Below, in pieces: positions 5,456 to 10,167 of a stretch of 10,167 bases of DNA; within the stretch, counting starts at the first letter, position 1, and each line of letters begins with the position of its first letter. The notes under the pieces are model-generated. The model was not told where the DNA came from and searched no databases. It was given only the letters and a program-made list of their open reading frames with translations. This DNA comes from Candidatus Brocadiaceae bacterium (GTDB lineage: Bacteria > Planctomycetota > MHYJ01 > JACQXL01 > CAKKQI01): contig CAKKQI010000179.1 of assembly GCA_919901895.1 (NCBI GenBank), positions 4,691-14,857 of the forward strand, given 5' to 3'. The position numbers and the translations under genes are program-made.

Positions 5456-5530
5456 GGCAGATTCGGCATTGGATACCTTTATTATTGTTTTCGTTAAAAT
5501 CTTACCCCAAAATGTTCCCGGGCCGAGGGA

Positions 5531-5630
5531 TGAGTGTCAGGGAAACAATCTCATTTCCTTAAGATTGCTTCACCCTTTCAGGGTTCGCAATGACAAAAAT
5601 GGGATTATGACACAGTCTGAATGACACTCA
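5531..5630. repeat. 100-bp miniature repeat element with 9-bp terminal inverted repeats
   Basis: TGAGTGTCA at 5531-5539 and TGACACTCA at 5622-5630 are perfect inverted copies bounding about 100 bp. Inside, CAATCT (5546-5551) and AGATTG (5562-5567) form a second inverted pair. A third hairpin lies at 5565-5590, with ACCCT/AGGGT around a TTC loop and outer TTGC/GCAA arms. The internal words AGATTGCTTC and TTCGCAATGACA resemble a repeat seen in gaps of many environmental bacterial genomes (from memory, not checked). It occupies half of the 200-bp gap between the sulfatase-like and glycosyltransferase genes. No T-run follows the hairpin on the minus strand, so it is not a standard terminator. The remaining gap sequence, 5456-5530 and 5631-5655, shows nothing recognisable. 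Confidence 0.7.
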
Positions 5631-5655
5631 AATGATGGTTTCAACGGAGCCTTTA

Positions 5656-8600
5656 TTATTTACTTTCCCAGTACCCGTGTTTTTTAAGTTCTTCAATTAA
5701 TAAAGCGGGCAATTCTTTTTTGTCTAACGGCTGATCAATCCGAACAGTCCTAATAAATTCCAAAAGTTTTTGAAGCAGGGCATAGACCACGCCAGGATTT
5801 TCCCGACTGCATTCTTTTGACTCACCGCGATCTTTCGTTAAATTGTAAAGCTCGTAACTCTCCACCTCAACATTAATAATTTCTTTGGGATTAGAGTCAA
5901 ATCCGTCCAGATCATCCCGGATCAGTTTTGGCAACTCTTTGAATAAATGAGTCCTGGTTTTATTAACTTTCCTGATTAATTTCCATTCCCCGGCGCGAAT
6001 CGTTTGTTTATATTCATTCGCCTCGGCGAATGAATATTTAAAATTTGAAACATCATTTTTTTCTTGATTAAGATTATTATGCTGTGACTGAGTTCTTTCT
6101 GTCATCAACGGAAGCAAACTCTGGCCCTGAGATTCTTGGTTAAGCGGAATCTTTAATAAATCTAAAGTCGTGGGCATAATATCAATGAGTTGAACCGGCG
6201 TATCAATTGGGGAATGGGGAATGGAGAATGGGGAATGCGGGATGCGGGATGTAAGATTGTTAGGTAATTTTATAATCAGCGGGACGTGGATAACTTCATC
6301 ATAAAGATTCTGCGCGCCAAAGCGGTCAAAACTGCCGTGGTCGCCTAATTCCTCGCCGTGGTCCGCCGTTAAAATAATCAGAGAATTTTCAAATAAACCT
6401 GATTCTTTTAGTTTAGCAACCAAGATTCCCATCTGCTGATCGGCATAAAAAATACTGCTGTCATAATGAGCAACGACATGATTAAAGTCATCTGCATTTA
6501 ACTTATGATTTTTATCTTTTAATGATAGTTCTGAATTTTTGATATTTTTCAGCAAATCATATGATAAAGGAACCCGGTCAAAAATCCCCCGGTAATTTTC
6601 GTCAAACATATGGTGGTCCGGTTCCGAAACGGCATCATAAGGCGAGTGACCGTCGTAGGTATGAAGGTAGAGGAAGAAAGGGCTGGGTGTCGTGCGTCCT
6701 GCGTCTTGCGTCTTGGGTCTAGTGTCTGGCGTCTTGCGTCTTGCGTCTAACCAATCAACAACCAGAGGCACTAAATCAGCGCTGCGGGCCAAGGATTTTT
6801 TATCATAATAAGAATCAAATCCTTGGTTAAGGTTGTTAATGGAATTAAGGTCAAGCCCCCCGGTAAAAGCGGTTGTTTCATAGCCATACATCTTTAATAT
6901 TTCAGGTAAGGTTAACGCTTTGTCCTGTAATGATTGCCCTCTTTCCCAAACTCCATGAGTGGAAGGGTATTGAGAAGTCAACATTGAGGTATGACTGGGC
7001 AAAGTCCAGTATGATTGACCAATCGCCTGAGTAAAAATAATCCCTTCTTTGGCTAAAGCATCAATATTCGGTGTAGTTTTACGATTATAACCATAACATT
7101 GAAGATGGTCGGCCCGTAAAGACCCGATCACAATCCAGATGACATTAAAGCCGGAAGCAGGAAGCGAGAAGTTCTCGGTTAAATTAGCGGCGGAATCATT
7201 TAAAGTAATTAATTGGCTTTCAAATTCTTTTAGTTTACTTACCCCGCTTTTATCGTCGGGGGAATCACTCCAGTACCCGGCCCGGCTGATTTCCTTTTGT
7301 AACTGCGGTGTCATACCGGTCGGAATAGAAACGGTTAAATTTTGCTTACTCCCATTAACCGATCTATTTTGCTCCAGCCATTTGAATAATTGTTCTTTTA
7401 ATTCGGTAGTTATTTCAGGATGTTCAGAAACAACATTTTTGGTTTCGGCCGGGTCATTAACTAAATCAAATAAGATGAAGATATGGGCGGGGACCCCGCT
7501 TGGGGCGAGACTCTCCCGCTTGGGGCGGGACTCCGCTGTCACTTTGCACTGTCGTTTCGCAAGTCCCGCTCTTTCCGGGAGAAAGGACGGGACAAGCCCC
7601 GCCGCTACATTTTCTTCGGTCTCAACGTAAATTAATTTCCATTGATTCGTCCGGACCAGCGCCCGATAAGGGGCGTCTTTGCCTAAAGCACCGTTACTGA
7701 AAACATACCCCGAAAATGAATTCGGGGCAGGTTTATTGAAGTCAGAGGAAACCGTCTCATTAATTAATGGTTTTAAACTCTGTCCTTGGGCCTGATGGGG
7801 AATCGGAATACCGGCATAATCAAGAATAGTCGGCATCACATCAATGAGTTGAACCGGCGCATCAACAGTTAAGTTATGAGTTATAAATGATGAGTTATGA
7901 ATGACAGATTGATGAGGTAATTTTATAATGAGCGGAACGCGAATGCCTTCTTCATAAACATTACCATGTTCGGCGCCACTTAAAGTTAACGGCAAATTGT
8001 CATTATTTTTATTCACATAAAGATAATTTTCATTTTTATGTTCATCAAAAGATTCACCGTGGTCTGAAAAAATTGCAATTAAGGTATTATCATAAAGATT
8101 CATCTGTTTTAACGCATTTAAAAATTGTCCGATTTGTTTATCCGCGCGGTTAATGGCGGTATCGTAATGCGCAATGACATATTCAATTTCTTCCATAGTA
8201 GGCGACAGGTCTTTCCAGTCCGGTTCGGCTGATTTTAAAGCCCGCTTAATTTCCGGCCGGACCGTAGACCACTTCCGGTTATTCCAGGCCGGAATAATCT
8301 CGTCAGTTTGGTCCGGACCGGGAATATGAGCATCGTAGCCGTGGAGGAAGAGGAAGAAGGGGAGGGACGGGCGTCCTGCGTCCGGCGTCCTGCGTCCACT
8401 ACTCTCTATTCGTTGCTCTCGACCCGCTACTTCTGATTTCAGCCAGTTAACGGCCTGCGGAACGGTTTGATTAAAACCGCCCAGCCAGGATTCGTTATGC
8501 TGATAAATATCAAATCCTTGCGCTAGCCCATGGCGCGAGTGGACGTCAAATCCGCCGCTGAAAGCCGCGGTCCGGTAGCCGTATAATTTTAAAATTTCAG

Positions 8601-8958
8601 CCAGTGTTAACGCTTTATCGCCTAACCGTTTATCCCGGCCATAAATCTGATGAACATCCGGATATAAAGAAGTCATAATTGAAACGTGGCTGGGCAGGGT
8701 CCAGGAAGATTGGGCAATGGCCTTGGTAAAAAGTATTCCATCCCGGGCCAGGTTGTCAATATTCGGGGTGGTCGGTTTTGGGTAACCGTAACAGGAAAGA
8801 TGGTCGGTTCTGACCGTATCCAATGATATAAGTATCACATTGGGCCGAGACGGCTTTATATCTGATGAAATCAGCGGCGTTGCTTTATCATCAGCGGCGT
8901 TACAGCCGAATAATAAAATAAGCAATAATAGTAGAATATATTTTACAGCGTAATTCAT
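5656..8958 (-). CDS. Two-domain sulfatase/alkaline-phosphatase-fold lipoprotein
   Basis: The 1100-residue protein begins with a hydrophobic signal and a lipobox (LLFGC, Cys19), so it should be lipidated and face the periplasm or cell surface. Domain 1 (about 38-565) and domain 2 (about 603-1097) are homologous. Each has NVI..., RxDHLxCYGY, WTLPSH, FFL(F/Y)LHxYD, AHYD, DHGE, VPLIIKLP and VQLID(V/I)MP, and ends in a GYW motif. In domain 1, Asp47 and Asp299/His300 are the expected metal ligands. The catalytic position is Thr87, not the Cys of CxPSR, and is Thr652 in domain 2. Domain 2 has Gly612 where Asp47 should be, but keeps Asp866/His867. A formylglycine sulfatase is therefore unlikely; a Thr-dependent phosphatase, phosphodiesterase or transferase in domain 1 is possible. 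The two-domain length is about twice normal. Several inserted repeats expand surface loops. ATG 8958 is supported by the signal peptide and an upstream stop in frame. Confidence 0.93.
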   Translation of the reverse strand: MNYAVKYILLLLLILLFGCNAADDKATPLISSDIKPSRPNVILISLDTVRTDHLSCYGYPKPTTPNIDNLARDGILFTKAIAQSSWTLPSHVSIMTSLYPDVHQIYGRDKRLGDKALTLAEILKLYGYRTAAFSGGFDVHSRHGLAQGFDIYQHNESWLGGFNQTVPQAVNWLKSEVAGREQRIESSGRRTPDAGRPSLPFFLFLHGYDAHIPGPDQTDEIIPAWNNRKWSTVRPEIKRALKSAEPDWKDLSPTMEEIEYVIAHYDTAINRADKQIGQFLNALKQMNLYDNTLIAIFSDHGESFDEHKNENYLYVNKNNDNLPLTLSGAEHGNVYEEGIRVPLIIKLPHQSVIHNSSFITHNLTVDAPVQLIDVMPTILDYAGIPIPHQAQGQSLKPLINETVSSDFNKPAPNSFSGYVFSNGALGKDAPYRALVRTNQWKLIYVETEENVAAGLVPSFLPERAGLAKRQCKVTAESRPKRESLAPSGVPAHIFILFDLVNDPAETKNVVSEHPEITTELKEQLFKWLEQNRSVNGSKQNLTVSIPTGMTPQLQKEISRAGYWSDSPDDKSGVSKLKEFESQLITLNDSAANLTENFSLPASGFNVIWIVIGSLRADHLQCYGYNRKTTPNIDALAKEGIIFTQAIGQSYWTLPSHTSMLTSQYPSTHGVWERGQSLQDKALTLPEILKMYGYETTAFTGGLDLNSINNLNQGFDSYYDKKSLARSADLVPLVVDWLDARRKTPDTRPKTQDAGRTTPSPFFLYLHTYDGHSPYDAVSEPDHHMFDENYRGIFDRVPLSYDLLKNIKNSELSLKDKNHKLNADDFNHVVAHYDSSIFYADQQMGILVAKLKESGLFENSLIILTADHGEELGDHGSFDRFGAQNLYDEVIHVPLIIKLPNNLTSRIPHSPFSIPHSPIDTPVQLIDIMPTTLDLLKIPLNQESQGQSLLPLMTERTQSQHNNLNQEKNDVSNFKYSFAEANEYKQTIRAGEWKLIRKVNKTRTHLFKELPKLIRDDLDGFDSNPKEIINVEVESYELYNLTKDRGESKECSRENPGVVYALLQKLLEFIRTVRIDQPLDKKELPALLIEELKKHGYWESK
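6209..6250 (-). repeat. Heptanucleotide repeat in CDS, domain 2 loop B (6 units)
   Basis: Six 7-bp units, GGGGAAT-like changing to GCGGGAT on the plus strand, lie between VPLIIKLP and VQLIDIMP of domain 2. They encode the 7-residue periodic peptide IPHSPFS/IPHSPID. The 42-bp length keeps the frame. Confidence 0.85.
6685..6747 (-). repeat. Heptanucleotide repeat in CDS, domain 2 loop A (9 units)
   Basis: Nine consecutive units with minus-strand consensus GACGCAA occupy exactly 63 bp, directly after the WL of domain 2 and before PFFLYLHTYD. Because 7 is coprime to 3, three units make one 21-bp coding period. The peptide is thus three 7-residue repeats (DARRKTP, DTRPKTQ, DAGRTTP). It is basic, polar and probably an exposed loop. 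Confidence 0.92.
7150..7170 (-). repeat. Three-unit heptanucleotide repeat before domain 2
   Basis: GCCGGAA, GCAGGAA and GCGAGAA on the plus strand form a 21-bp tract encoding FSLPASG, just before the first strand of domain 2 (NVIWIV). It sits in the linker between the two domains and is short, so chance is possible. Confidence 0.5.
7487..7606. repeat. GC-rich hairpin-forming insert within domain 1 coding sequence
   Basis: This stretch of about 120 bp is much richer in GC than its surroundings and encodes about 40 residues between WKLI and FDLVND with no counterpart in the paralogous domain at 9146-10167. It contains a 13-bp palindrome (7487-7499), a 20-bp tandem duplication (7495-7514 and 7515-7534, 18 of 20 identical), and a 31-bp hairpin (7563-7593) with 13-bp arms broken by one two-base mismatch around a 5-base loop. 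The exact ends are uncertain by several bases. It resembles the GGCGGGGCTTGTCCCCGCC-type repeats of environmental genomes (from memory). The frame stays open. Confidence 0.7.
7708..7731. repeat. 24-bp palindromic insert in domain 1 coding sequence
   Basis: CCCCGAA (7708-7714) and TTCGGGG (7721-7727) are perfect inverted arms around AATGAA. The 24 bp encode PAPNSFSG between FNK and YVFSN. The paralogous domain reads FNKYVFSN without interruption (near 9540-9565), which gives an empty site and shows a frame-preserving insertion in domain 1 (or precise loss in the other copy). Confidence 0.8.
7872..7906 (-). repeat. Heptanucleotide repeat in CDS, domain 1 loop B (5 units)
   Basis: AGTTATG, AGTTATA, AATGATG, AGTTATG and AATGACA follow each other on the plus strand, between VPLIIKLP and VQLIDVMP of domain 1. 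They encode a Ser/His/Asn-rich loop (HNSSFITHNLT). The site matches loop B of the other two domains, but the unit is a different word. Confidence 0.75.
8369..8431 (-). repeat. Heptanucleotide repeats in CDS, domain 1 loop A (4 + 5 units)
   Basis: Four GGGCGTC/CTGCGTC-type units (8369-8396) abut five worn CGCTACT-like units (8397-8431), 63 bp in total, just before PFFLFLHGYD of domain 1. The first family is close to the GACGCAA units of domain 2; the second is a different word. The length equals the 63-bp tract of domain 2. Confidence 0.75.
8870..8901. repeat. 12-bp direct repeat after the lipoprotein signal
   Basis: ATCAGCGGCGTT occurs at 8870-8881 and again at 8890-8901, 20 bp apart, in the linker directly after the lipidated Cys19. 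It may be a small local duplication lengthening the tether between membrane anchor and domain 1. Confidence 0.6.
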
Positions 8959-8970
8959 AAACAGTTTTAT

Positions 8971-8975
8971 CTCCC
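8971..8975 (-). promoter_or_regulatory. Probable ribosome binding site of the two-domain lipoprotein gene
   Basis: On the minus strand GGGAG lies 12 bp before ATG 8958, a slightly long spacing. It is the only purine-rich candidate near that start. Confidence 0.4.
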
Positions 8976-9063
8976 GGTTTCGGTGGTGGTTGCATCTCGT
9001 TTATCAGTATGGGGATAGGCGTCGGCATAAATTGCGCCAAACGAAACATATTTCCCAAGCCGA

Positions 9064-9105
9064 CCAGGCCTCGCCTGTCTGCCGACAGACAGGCCGTCAG
9101 GCTGG
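9064..9105. repeat. Intergenic palindromic element
   Basis: GCCTGTCTG (9073-9081) and CAGACAGGC (9086-9094) form a perfect 9-bp stem with a CCGA loop. CCAG/CTGG ends extend it imperfectly to about 42 bp. It lies in the 187-bp gap between the partial and the two-domain sulfatase-like genes. No T-run follows on either side, so it is more like a REP-type repeat than a terminator. The word family (CCTGTCTGCCGACAGACAGG) recalls palindromes scattered in many uncultivated bacterial genomes, from memory. The rest of the gap shows no clear promoter. Confidence 0.65.
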
Positions 9106-9145
9106 AACTCAACCGTAACCTAACCCCCAAACTATACCTCGTTAT

Positions 9146-10167
9146 TTAATCATCGGTAATTATAATAGTCTCGCTTTTCATTTCAGTCTCGTGTTTTTTA
9201 ACAGAAATATCTCCGGCCGAATTGTCATTTTCCGTCCAGTAGCCATGCTGGCGGATTGCCTTGAGCATTTCCGGCGTAATCTTTCCTGCCGCGACCGGTT
9301 TAATTCTCTGATTTTCTATTTCTTTCCACAATCCGCACAATTGTTTTTCGAGTTCCGTAACCACGGCCGGATATTCTTGGGCAACATTTTTGTCCTCGGT
9401 CTGATCATTGACGCAATCATATAATTGAACCGCGTAATGTTGACCCGCTTCCGTTTGCGGGAATGGAGTGCAAACTAATTTCCATTTATCAGTCCGGACG
9501 CGGAAAGAGAAAACGCCGTCATCTTCTGTGGTATTGCTGAACACGTATTTATTAAAATTAGGAGAAGCCGTATTTTCAATTAATGGTTTAAGACTGCGGC
9601 CCTGGGCCTGATGGGGAATCGGAATGCTCAAATAATCGATGATCGTCGGCATGATGTCTATAAGTTGGACTTGGGTATTAATTTTAGATTGCGGATTACT
9701 GATTGCGGATTTCAGGCTTAGCGGTAATTTTATTATTAAGGGGACATGGAAACGATCTTTGCCGAGTATTTTTTCGATGGAACCGTGATCTGAGAAAATA
9801 ATAATCATCATATTGTCCAGCGGTTCGATTTTTTCTAATGCGGCCAAGAAGCCGCCAATCTGTTCATCAGCATAGTTAATCGCGCCATCATAATGAGCTA
9901 TCTGATGCTGCCTCAGAACCGGCGAAGATAAAAGATCTTGTTCAAATTTTTTACTAAATCTCCAATTAGACATTATTTCGTCTAATCTCAAATCAATCTC
10001 AGGATGTTCGCTTATCCAGCGATGCCGGTAACTATCCGAAATACTGGAATAAGGCCTATGAACGTCGTAGCCGTGGAGGAAGAGGAAGAAGGGTTGTGCG
10101 TTGTGCGTTGTGCGTCTTGCGTTCAGCCAGTTGCTCGCCCGGGGGATAGAATCCCGAAAAGGACCCC
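9146..10167 (-). CDS. Sulfatase/alkaline-phosphatase-fold protein (N-terminus cut by window edge)
   Basis: The frame is open from the right edge to the stop at 9146, giving 339 visible residues; the start lies outside. A TTG at 9991 is in frame but is not the true start, because the preceding codons encode conserved domain sequence including WLN and PFFLFLHGYDVHRPY. Then come AHYDGAINYADEQIGGF, FSDHG, VPLIIKLP, VQLIDIMP, IPIPHQAQGRSLKPLI, YVFSN, DCVNDQTEDKNV and a terminal GYW motif. It resembles domain 1 of the downstream two-domain protein more than domain 2, so tandem duplication is likely. After DHG the protein reads SIEKILGKDRFHVPLIIK: the Glu and the second His-Gly loop of the paralogues are missing, so activity is doubtful. 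The Thr/Cys nucleophile region is outside the window. It ends 187 bp before the next gene. Role is presumably envelope-associated like its neighbour; the substrate is unknown. Confidence 0.9.
   Translation of the reverse strand, partial: GPFRDSIPRASNWLNARRTTHNAQPFFLFLHGYDVHRPYSSISDSYRHRWISEHPEIDLRLDEIMSNWRFSKKFEQDLLSSPVLRQHQIAHYDGAINYADEQIGGFLAALEKIEPLDNMMIIIFSDHGSIEKILGKDRFHVPLIIKLPLSLKSAISNPQSKINTQVQLIDIMPTIIDYLSIPIPHQAQGRSLKPLIENTASPNFNKYVFSNTTEDDGVFSFRVRTDKWKLVCTPFPQTEAGQHYAVQLYDCVNDQTEDKNVAQEYPAVVTELEKQLCGLWKEIENQRIKPVAAGKITPEMLKAIRQHGYWTENDNSAGDISVKKHETEMKSETIIITDD
9687..9714 (-). repeat. Heptanucleotide repeat in CDS, third domain loop B (4 units)
   Basis: GATTGCG, GATTACT, GATTGCG and GATTTCA follow on the plus strand, between VPLIIKLP and VQLIDIMP of the partial protein. 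They encode part of KSAISNPQSK. The position equals loop B of both domains in the downstream gene, with a third, different unit. Confidence 0.75.
10094..10121 (-). repeat. Heptanucleotide repeat in CDS, third domain loop A (4 units)
   Basis: Three identical TTGTGCG units and one TCTTGCG unit lie directly after WLN and before PFFLFLHGYD, encoding ARRTTHNAQ. This is the same loop A as in the two domains of the downstream gene, and the minus-strand units (GCACAAC, GCAAGAC) are related to the GACGCAA family. Confidence 0.85.

Follow-up and report, generated by a model that had tools for sequence, protein, structure and literature searches.

Heptanucleotide repeats of the STRR type have cyanobacterial hosts; they were reportedly described by Mazel in 1990, and a 1997 study by Vioque is said, going by its title, to place them within an RNase P RNA gene. 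Like STRR, the repeats analysed here are 7-bp tandem units that are dispersed at many loci and drawn from a few recurring words, the latter trait having been tested genome-wide for the word GATTACC and in part for the others. STRR lie mostly outside genes; of the 35 strong tracts sampled here, 18 were found outside open frames of at least 100 aa, in a sample of which such frames make up 85.6%. What sets these repeats apart from STRR is that roughly half of the strong tracts are inside protein frames, where they occupy loops of conserved enzymes; the words and the host also differ, and about half of the non-coding tracts are paired inversely.

Rickettsia palindromic elements, in the accessible part of the account, place in-frame, repeat-derived peptides in unrelated metabolic genes in a fold-compatible manner (PMC10969869). 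By that partial account, in-frame insertion in unrelated genes is shared with the tracts reported here, but the Rickettsia elements are palindromes that measure about 150 bp and carry a conserved peptide, whereas ours are tandem arrays of 25–100 bp with differing peptides; the palindromic inserts of this genome, described below, are nearer to them than the heptads are. By analogy, the heptads would resemble the intragenic insertion of Rickettsia palindromic elements, except that the inserted unit is a heptanucleotide array. In Beggiatoaceae, the available text describes TAACTGA as a single word, mostly intergenic and placed before start codons; like the heptads here, it forms tandem heptamers that are sometimes coding, although its coding cases, unlike ours, are mostly at the protein edge (PMC4679880). 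The sections available on heptamer repeats of the GGGAATC type in Xanthomonas and Nostoc place them mostly outside genes (PMC4692102), and those on the heptanucleotide elements of Geobacter describe a family also found within genes (PMC2700814); in the same sections, both are read as G-quadruplex or regulatory elements. Among the matches listed in a literature search that left most subscription journals uncovered, no paper was found on heptanucleotide arrays inside the loops of conserved enzymes.

Sulfatase-like domains with heptanucleotide tracts in two loops

The window, that is, the whole stretch of 10,167 nucleotides that was analysed (contig C179, positions 4691–14857), comes from a 2.50-Mb draft genome of 509 contigs that is 93% complete. 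It encodes three sulfatase-like domains (Table 1), assigned to the sulfatase/alkaline phosphatase superfamily by both the Pfam Sulfatase match and the fold. Type I (formylglycine) sulfatases carry the nucleophile motif C/S-x-P-x-R. This motif was not found in domains 1 and 2, C346 or C333, which have WTLPSH (both domains), WTLPSN and WTLPAT, respectively; the partial domain 3 lacks this part. Such replacements of C-x-P-x-R were observed in the ORF at 5656–8958 and at L144 and L145. Judging from these residues, the ‘sulfatases’ with WTLPSH/N or WTLPAT may be phosphodiesterase-like rather than sulfatases. The three domains share 35–42% protein identity, and their pairwise identity at fourfold sites (13/37, 17/45 and 30/66) is near saturation. 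In the sulfatase structure model, the mean pLDDT was 80, with 62–75 in the blocks of loops A and B; loop A is predicted at about residues 149–170, flanked by a helix (137–153) and a strand (172–178), and loop B at about residues 311–330.

Table 1. Features of the window (positions are those of the window)
Feature	Position	Strand	Sequence or evidence
ORF of 1100 aa with two sulfatase-like (alkaline-phosphatase-superfamily) domains; domain 1 is its C-terminal half, domain 2 its N-terminal half	5656..8958	minus	PF00884 twice, SGSH_C twice
Loop B tract, domain 1	6208..6251	minus	GGGGAAT then ATGCGGG (+ strand)
Loop A tract, domain 1	6689..6748	minus	GACGCAA-like (coding strand)
Folding repeat of a second kind, domain 2 C-terminal part, in frame, dispersed	7476..7612	minus	blastn
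Loop B tract, domain 2	7872..7904	minus	AGTTATG / GAGTTAT (+ strand)
Loop A tract, domain 2	8370..8431	minus	GACGCAG/GACGCCG array 8370-8397, then degenerate 7-bp units
Partial sulfatase-like ORF (domain 3), open at contig end	9146..10165	minus	
Loop B tract, domain 3	9687..9711	minus	GATTGCG (+ strand)
Loop A tract, domain 3	10093..10123	minus	AACGCAC-like (coding strand)

The first-pass annotation of this DNA had placed six period-7 tracts in two corresponding loops of the three domains, and Tandem Repeats Finder returned period-7 arrays within a few bases of each claimed place (6208–6242, 6235–6251, 6689–6748, 7872–7900, 8371–8397, 9687–9711 and 10093–10123). The tract given as 8369–8431 was borne out only in part: a clean array spans about 8370–8397, and the remainder is degenerate (GAGCAAC GAATAGA GAGTAGT, coding strand). 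A lag-7 scan also recovered all six tracts. Lag-7 identities in domains 1–3 were 50/71, 40/77 and 23/32 for loop A DNA and 39/71, 27/65 and 31/56 for loop B DNA; lags 5, 6, 8 and 9 were below lag 7 in all six loops. When a 352-kb genome sample was locally shuffled in three runs, no tract reached 20 of 28 lag-7 matches, and 0, 1 and 0 tracts reached 19 of 28. Six tracts per 4.3 kb against 0.20 expected amount to clustering, in a window that was chosen because of them. The words are unlike in the three loops B (GGGGAAT/ATGCGGG, AGTTATG and GATTGCG) and GACGCA(A/G/C)-like in all three loops A, and the anticipated seven-residue peptide repeats are seen, for example, in DARRKTP DTRPKTQ DAGR and RIPHSPF SIPHSPI.

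Loop A has 22, 26 and 10 residues in domains 1–3 and 26 in C346, a further paralogue in which it carries another word family; the loop A of C333 is 12 residues long and shows a weak period (22/41). In homologues, it has 6–7 residues in 48 of the 49 loops caught by pattern, among 119 homologues listed. Loop B has 22, 20 and 17 residues in domains 1–3, and no heptads were found in that of C333 (lag-7 identity 14/53); among 90 loops of homologues, 86 have 10–15 residues and the other four have 20. Given these four, which belong to long relatives (P0002–P0005) without the heptad words of this genome, the repeats in loop B may partly replace a native loop, not only lengthen it. The length of loop B may thus predate the arrival of the repeats, and insertion is less clear here than in loop A. 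A protein-guided scan of named genomes found no relative, and a close strain was likewise not found.

Dispersed repeats of other kinds also occur in the window. The element at 7476–7612 is strongly folding and has 10 blastn matches on seven other contigs of the genome, and the intergenic stretch at 5515–5640 is another dispersed repeat, with seven matches on five other contigs.

Period-7 tracts across the genome

For a census, 115 contigs were sampled by number, excluding contigs fetched for a hit, giving 525,153 bases, of which 420,941 were readable and the rest N. At a threshold of 30, we detected 28 tracts of period 7, 13 of period 8, and eight each of periods 14 and 21, which are multiples of 7; every other period between 4 and 22 gave 0–7. 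Not all of the period-8 signal is noise, given a coding octamer array in leucyl-tRNA synthetase (LeuRS; see below). Thirty-five of the 43 candidate places qualified as strong tracts, with a trimmed score of at least 10. The tandem-repeat search that the first-pass annotation had proposed, run on this contig sample, put 17 of the 35 strong tracts in open frames of at least 100 aa; such frames cover 85.6% of the readable sample. Tracts are depleted in frames, yet common there, and with about half of the strong tracts outside genes despite this coverage, genes are not a preferred target. The notion that the tracts might be peculiar to loops A and B was not supported: heptads were found genome-wide, inside and outside genes.

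An inverted match (at least three shared 10-mers, in the tract or within 200 bases) accompanied 8 of the 18 strong tracts outside frames and 1 of the 17 inside. Non-coding arrays arranged as inverted pairs were observed at L172:329–409, L063:6497–6578, L039:4022–4117, L192:5715–5783 and L188:1372–1455; inverted heptad pairs could form hairpins. The consensus word was stop-free in at least one direction in 14/17 coding and 9/18 non-coding strong tracts, a weak difference. The idea that GA is the best-conserved pair of every word was dropped: over 27 tracts, GA (taken together with TC) ranked first in 2.1 and AA in 11.4. Palindromes of the form TCCCGA-N1-12-TCGGGA numbered 23 in 460 kb of the genome, compared with 0–2 for four control words.

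Recurrence of words within and between genomes

GATTACC, searched with up to three mismatches in 20 bases, occurred in this genome at 48 places, distributed over 19 contigs, and its reversed word at none, which argues that words spread. In G007, the reversed word was found at 35 places against one for GATTACC itself, and of the 143 places in G033, the matches listed have the variant GAGTACC; these two cases suggest that the dictionaries are genome-specific. Of 199 genomes sampled from the phylum, 23 contain GACGCAA with up to two mismatches. Within this order, it was found at 6 places in G000, 13 in G001, 11 in G004, 18 in G006 and none in G003 (reversed controls 0, 5, 0, 1 and 0), and at none in the six other genomes drawn from the class. 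Elsewhere in the phylum, there were mostly 1–4 places, with 15 in G146, 6 in G033 and 5 in G119 (reversed, 8). GATTGCG occurred in 14 of 18 chosen genomes at up to 255 places, with 0–2 for the reversed controls except for 32 in the 255-place genome.

A dictionary common to unrelated genomes was considered and rejected, the overlap not being above chance: 1 of 46 consensus words was shared (null mean 0.58), as were 9 of 105 exact dimers (null mean 4.3, 97.5% point 9, reversed 6). Three exact units of GACGCAA were found in stretches belonging to many phyla, at least 117 in all, a count that had no control word alongside; for 80 of these stretches, 33 of 84 places fell in frames of at least 150 aa, which cover 84% of the bases. 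Calidithermus chliarophilus, which is unrelated, has long arrays of mixed heptads built around GACGCAA at L282, L296, L313, L316 and L317. When two-unit words were counted with two mismatches allowed, real words could not be told from shuffled ones. With three units, the count came to 28 tracts for nine words, compared with 3 for their reversals and 0.22 for each shuffled word, a weak result, as most of the nine had been chosen from the same sample.

Tracts in housekeeping enzymes and their orthologues

Pfam matches on ten frames included acetyl-CoA synthetase, a CoA-disulfide-reductase-like enzyme, GcvPB, LeuRS and TsaD, as well as a frame containing parts of both SHMT and GcvT. When the first five of these enzymes were compared with solved relatives, the tracts coincided with alignment gaps. 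TsaD has extra stretches at residues 134–160, 237–273 and 334–382, and the insert comprises about 19 residues in GcvPB, 4 in acetyl-CoA synthetase, 2–3 at the two tracts of the CoA-disulfide-reductase-like enzyme and 2 in LeuRS; given inserts of just 2–4 residues in the last three, the tract may have overwritten the loop there. Residues 237–273 of TsaD and a second GcvPB insert (398–430) are not heptads and appear palindromic by eye, and the latter has blastn matches on 12 other sampled contigs. A TsaD model built from six sequences had a mean pLDDT of 58, with insert 337–382, like much else, below 50, and was not used as evidence. The LeuRS frame (L100:2–1498) contains two coding arrays, one of period 8 (AACAGTCC) and, after it, an inverted one (CTGGACTG-like). 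At L192:3183–5624, a single frame joins the C-terminal part of SHMT to a GcvT domain, with heptad tracts between them; it is possibly a fusion made through the repeats.

TsaD has 451 aa here, 344 in the frame of G003 and 345, minus the first ~30 residues, in the sister genus G001. Inserts 237–273 and 334–382 are absent from all six other genomes aligned. In this genome, the loop after AHLY is 32 residues long and its heptads are AGTCGCG- and ATTACCG-like (lag-7 identity 0.57); it has 37 residues in G001, with AACGCAA- and AATTTGC-like heptads (0.49, against 0.30–0.33 at other lags); G004, from a third genus, has 26 residues with a palindromic repeat, G002 has 37 without a clear repeat, and G003, G010 and G012 have 11 bare residues. 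Similarly, one GcvPB loop holds heptads here and other inserts in G002, G004 and G007 and is empty in G001, G003 and G010. The earlier observation of different words at the same site, made on paralogous domains, now holds between orthologues too. G002 and G007 carry inserts other than heptads, so tolerance of the loop, and not the heptad, is the common feature.

Origin of the tracts

Tracts occur genome-wide and in frame in housekeeping genes, the same loops are empty or otherwise filled in related genera, and a word recurs on many contigs. The account that we consider probable is that genes take up dispersed STRR-like heptads and REP-like palindromes, which persist where a loop tolerates changes in length. 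Short and degenerate heptanucleotide tandem repeats, built from a small stock of recurring words, would form a population across the genome, with REP-like palindromes alongside. New tracts would appear at many places, with words copied from other sites and then altered by slippage and point mutation. Selection would mainly purge them except outside genes and in tolerant loops, and within genes the survivors would be tracts that keep the frame and lie in such loops. Loops A and B and those of TsaD and GcvPB would have been filled more than once, hence the different words at one site.

If, instead, an ancestral tract in loops A and B had been inherited by all copies, its words drifting by slippage and mutation, tracts would be expected at two identical sites in all three domains, with loop A words alike, as is observed. 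However, fourfold divergence among the domains is close to saturation (13/37 to 30/66 identical), so a resemblance as strong as that of the loop A words would have been lost, and their sharing is unlikely to reflect plain descent, in line with the first-pass view that simple inheritance does not explain the pattern. A long loop A is also missing from most homologues, and the TsaD loop has other words in the sister genus and none in three genomes; we regard inheritance as very unlikely. Conversion or copying among the three neighbouring domains would hold their loop A tracts alike, and GACGCA words do stand in one orientation in all three, with similar DNA beside loop A in domains 2 and 3 (0.86 in a 12-codon window, 0.53 overall). 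That window is near-identical in protein too, though, so high DNA identity is expected, and conversion appears improbable given that loop B words differ in all three domains, that C346, elsewhere in the genome, carries other words and that GACGCA tracts are also present on other contigs.

Slippage in place from chance seeds, with no copying of words, would suit the imperfect units, the length-tolerant loops and the longer arrays outside genes. It is quite unlikely to account for the presence of GATTACC on 19 contigs and its reversal on none, or for the recurrence of GACGCA and GATTGCG words in this order, where most genomes have them far more often than the reversed controls. The tracts might also be contingency loci, at which a change in unit number alters or switches the protein adaptively; they are coding tandem repeats with a period that is not a multiple of 3, but degenerate units work against slippage and housekeeping genes bear tracts of like kind, which makes this reading highly improbable. 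Repeated entry of dispersed repeats into tolerant loops agrees with the earlier suggestion that these loops repeatedly accept repeats, which is supported by the saturation between domains, the other words of C346 and the TsaD and GcvPB loops filled differently across genera.

As to machinery, targets of diversity-generating retroelements would be accompanied by a reverse transcriptase in the genome, and none (PF00078) was detected in seven draft genomes of the order, which are 77–97% complete. Y1-type transposases are known from REP mobilisation. They were found in all ten genomes searched, with one copy here and no tie to the heptads, and might serve the palindromes. A more far-reaching reading, which we consider rather doubtful, is that the order has an active process, not reliant on a reverse transcriptase, by which 7-letter words specific to each genome are copied to new sites, frequently in the form of inverted pairs when outside genes, and loop peptides are continually added to essential enzymes, with per-genome dictionaries turning over between genera.

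What began as an oddity of one sulfatase becomes a measurable genome-wide process, in which repeats known mainly from non-coding DNA would be written repeatedly into the loops of conserved enzymes. Orthologous loops with different repeats would provide natural maps of where a protein, TsaD for example, tolerates insertion. Because words recur on unlinked contigs, the spread of bacterial heptanucleotide repeats becomes a testable question.
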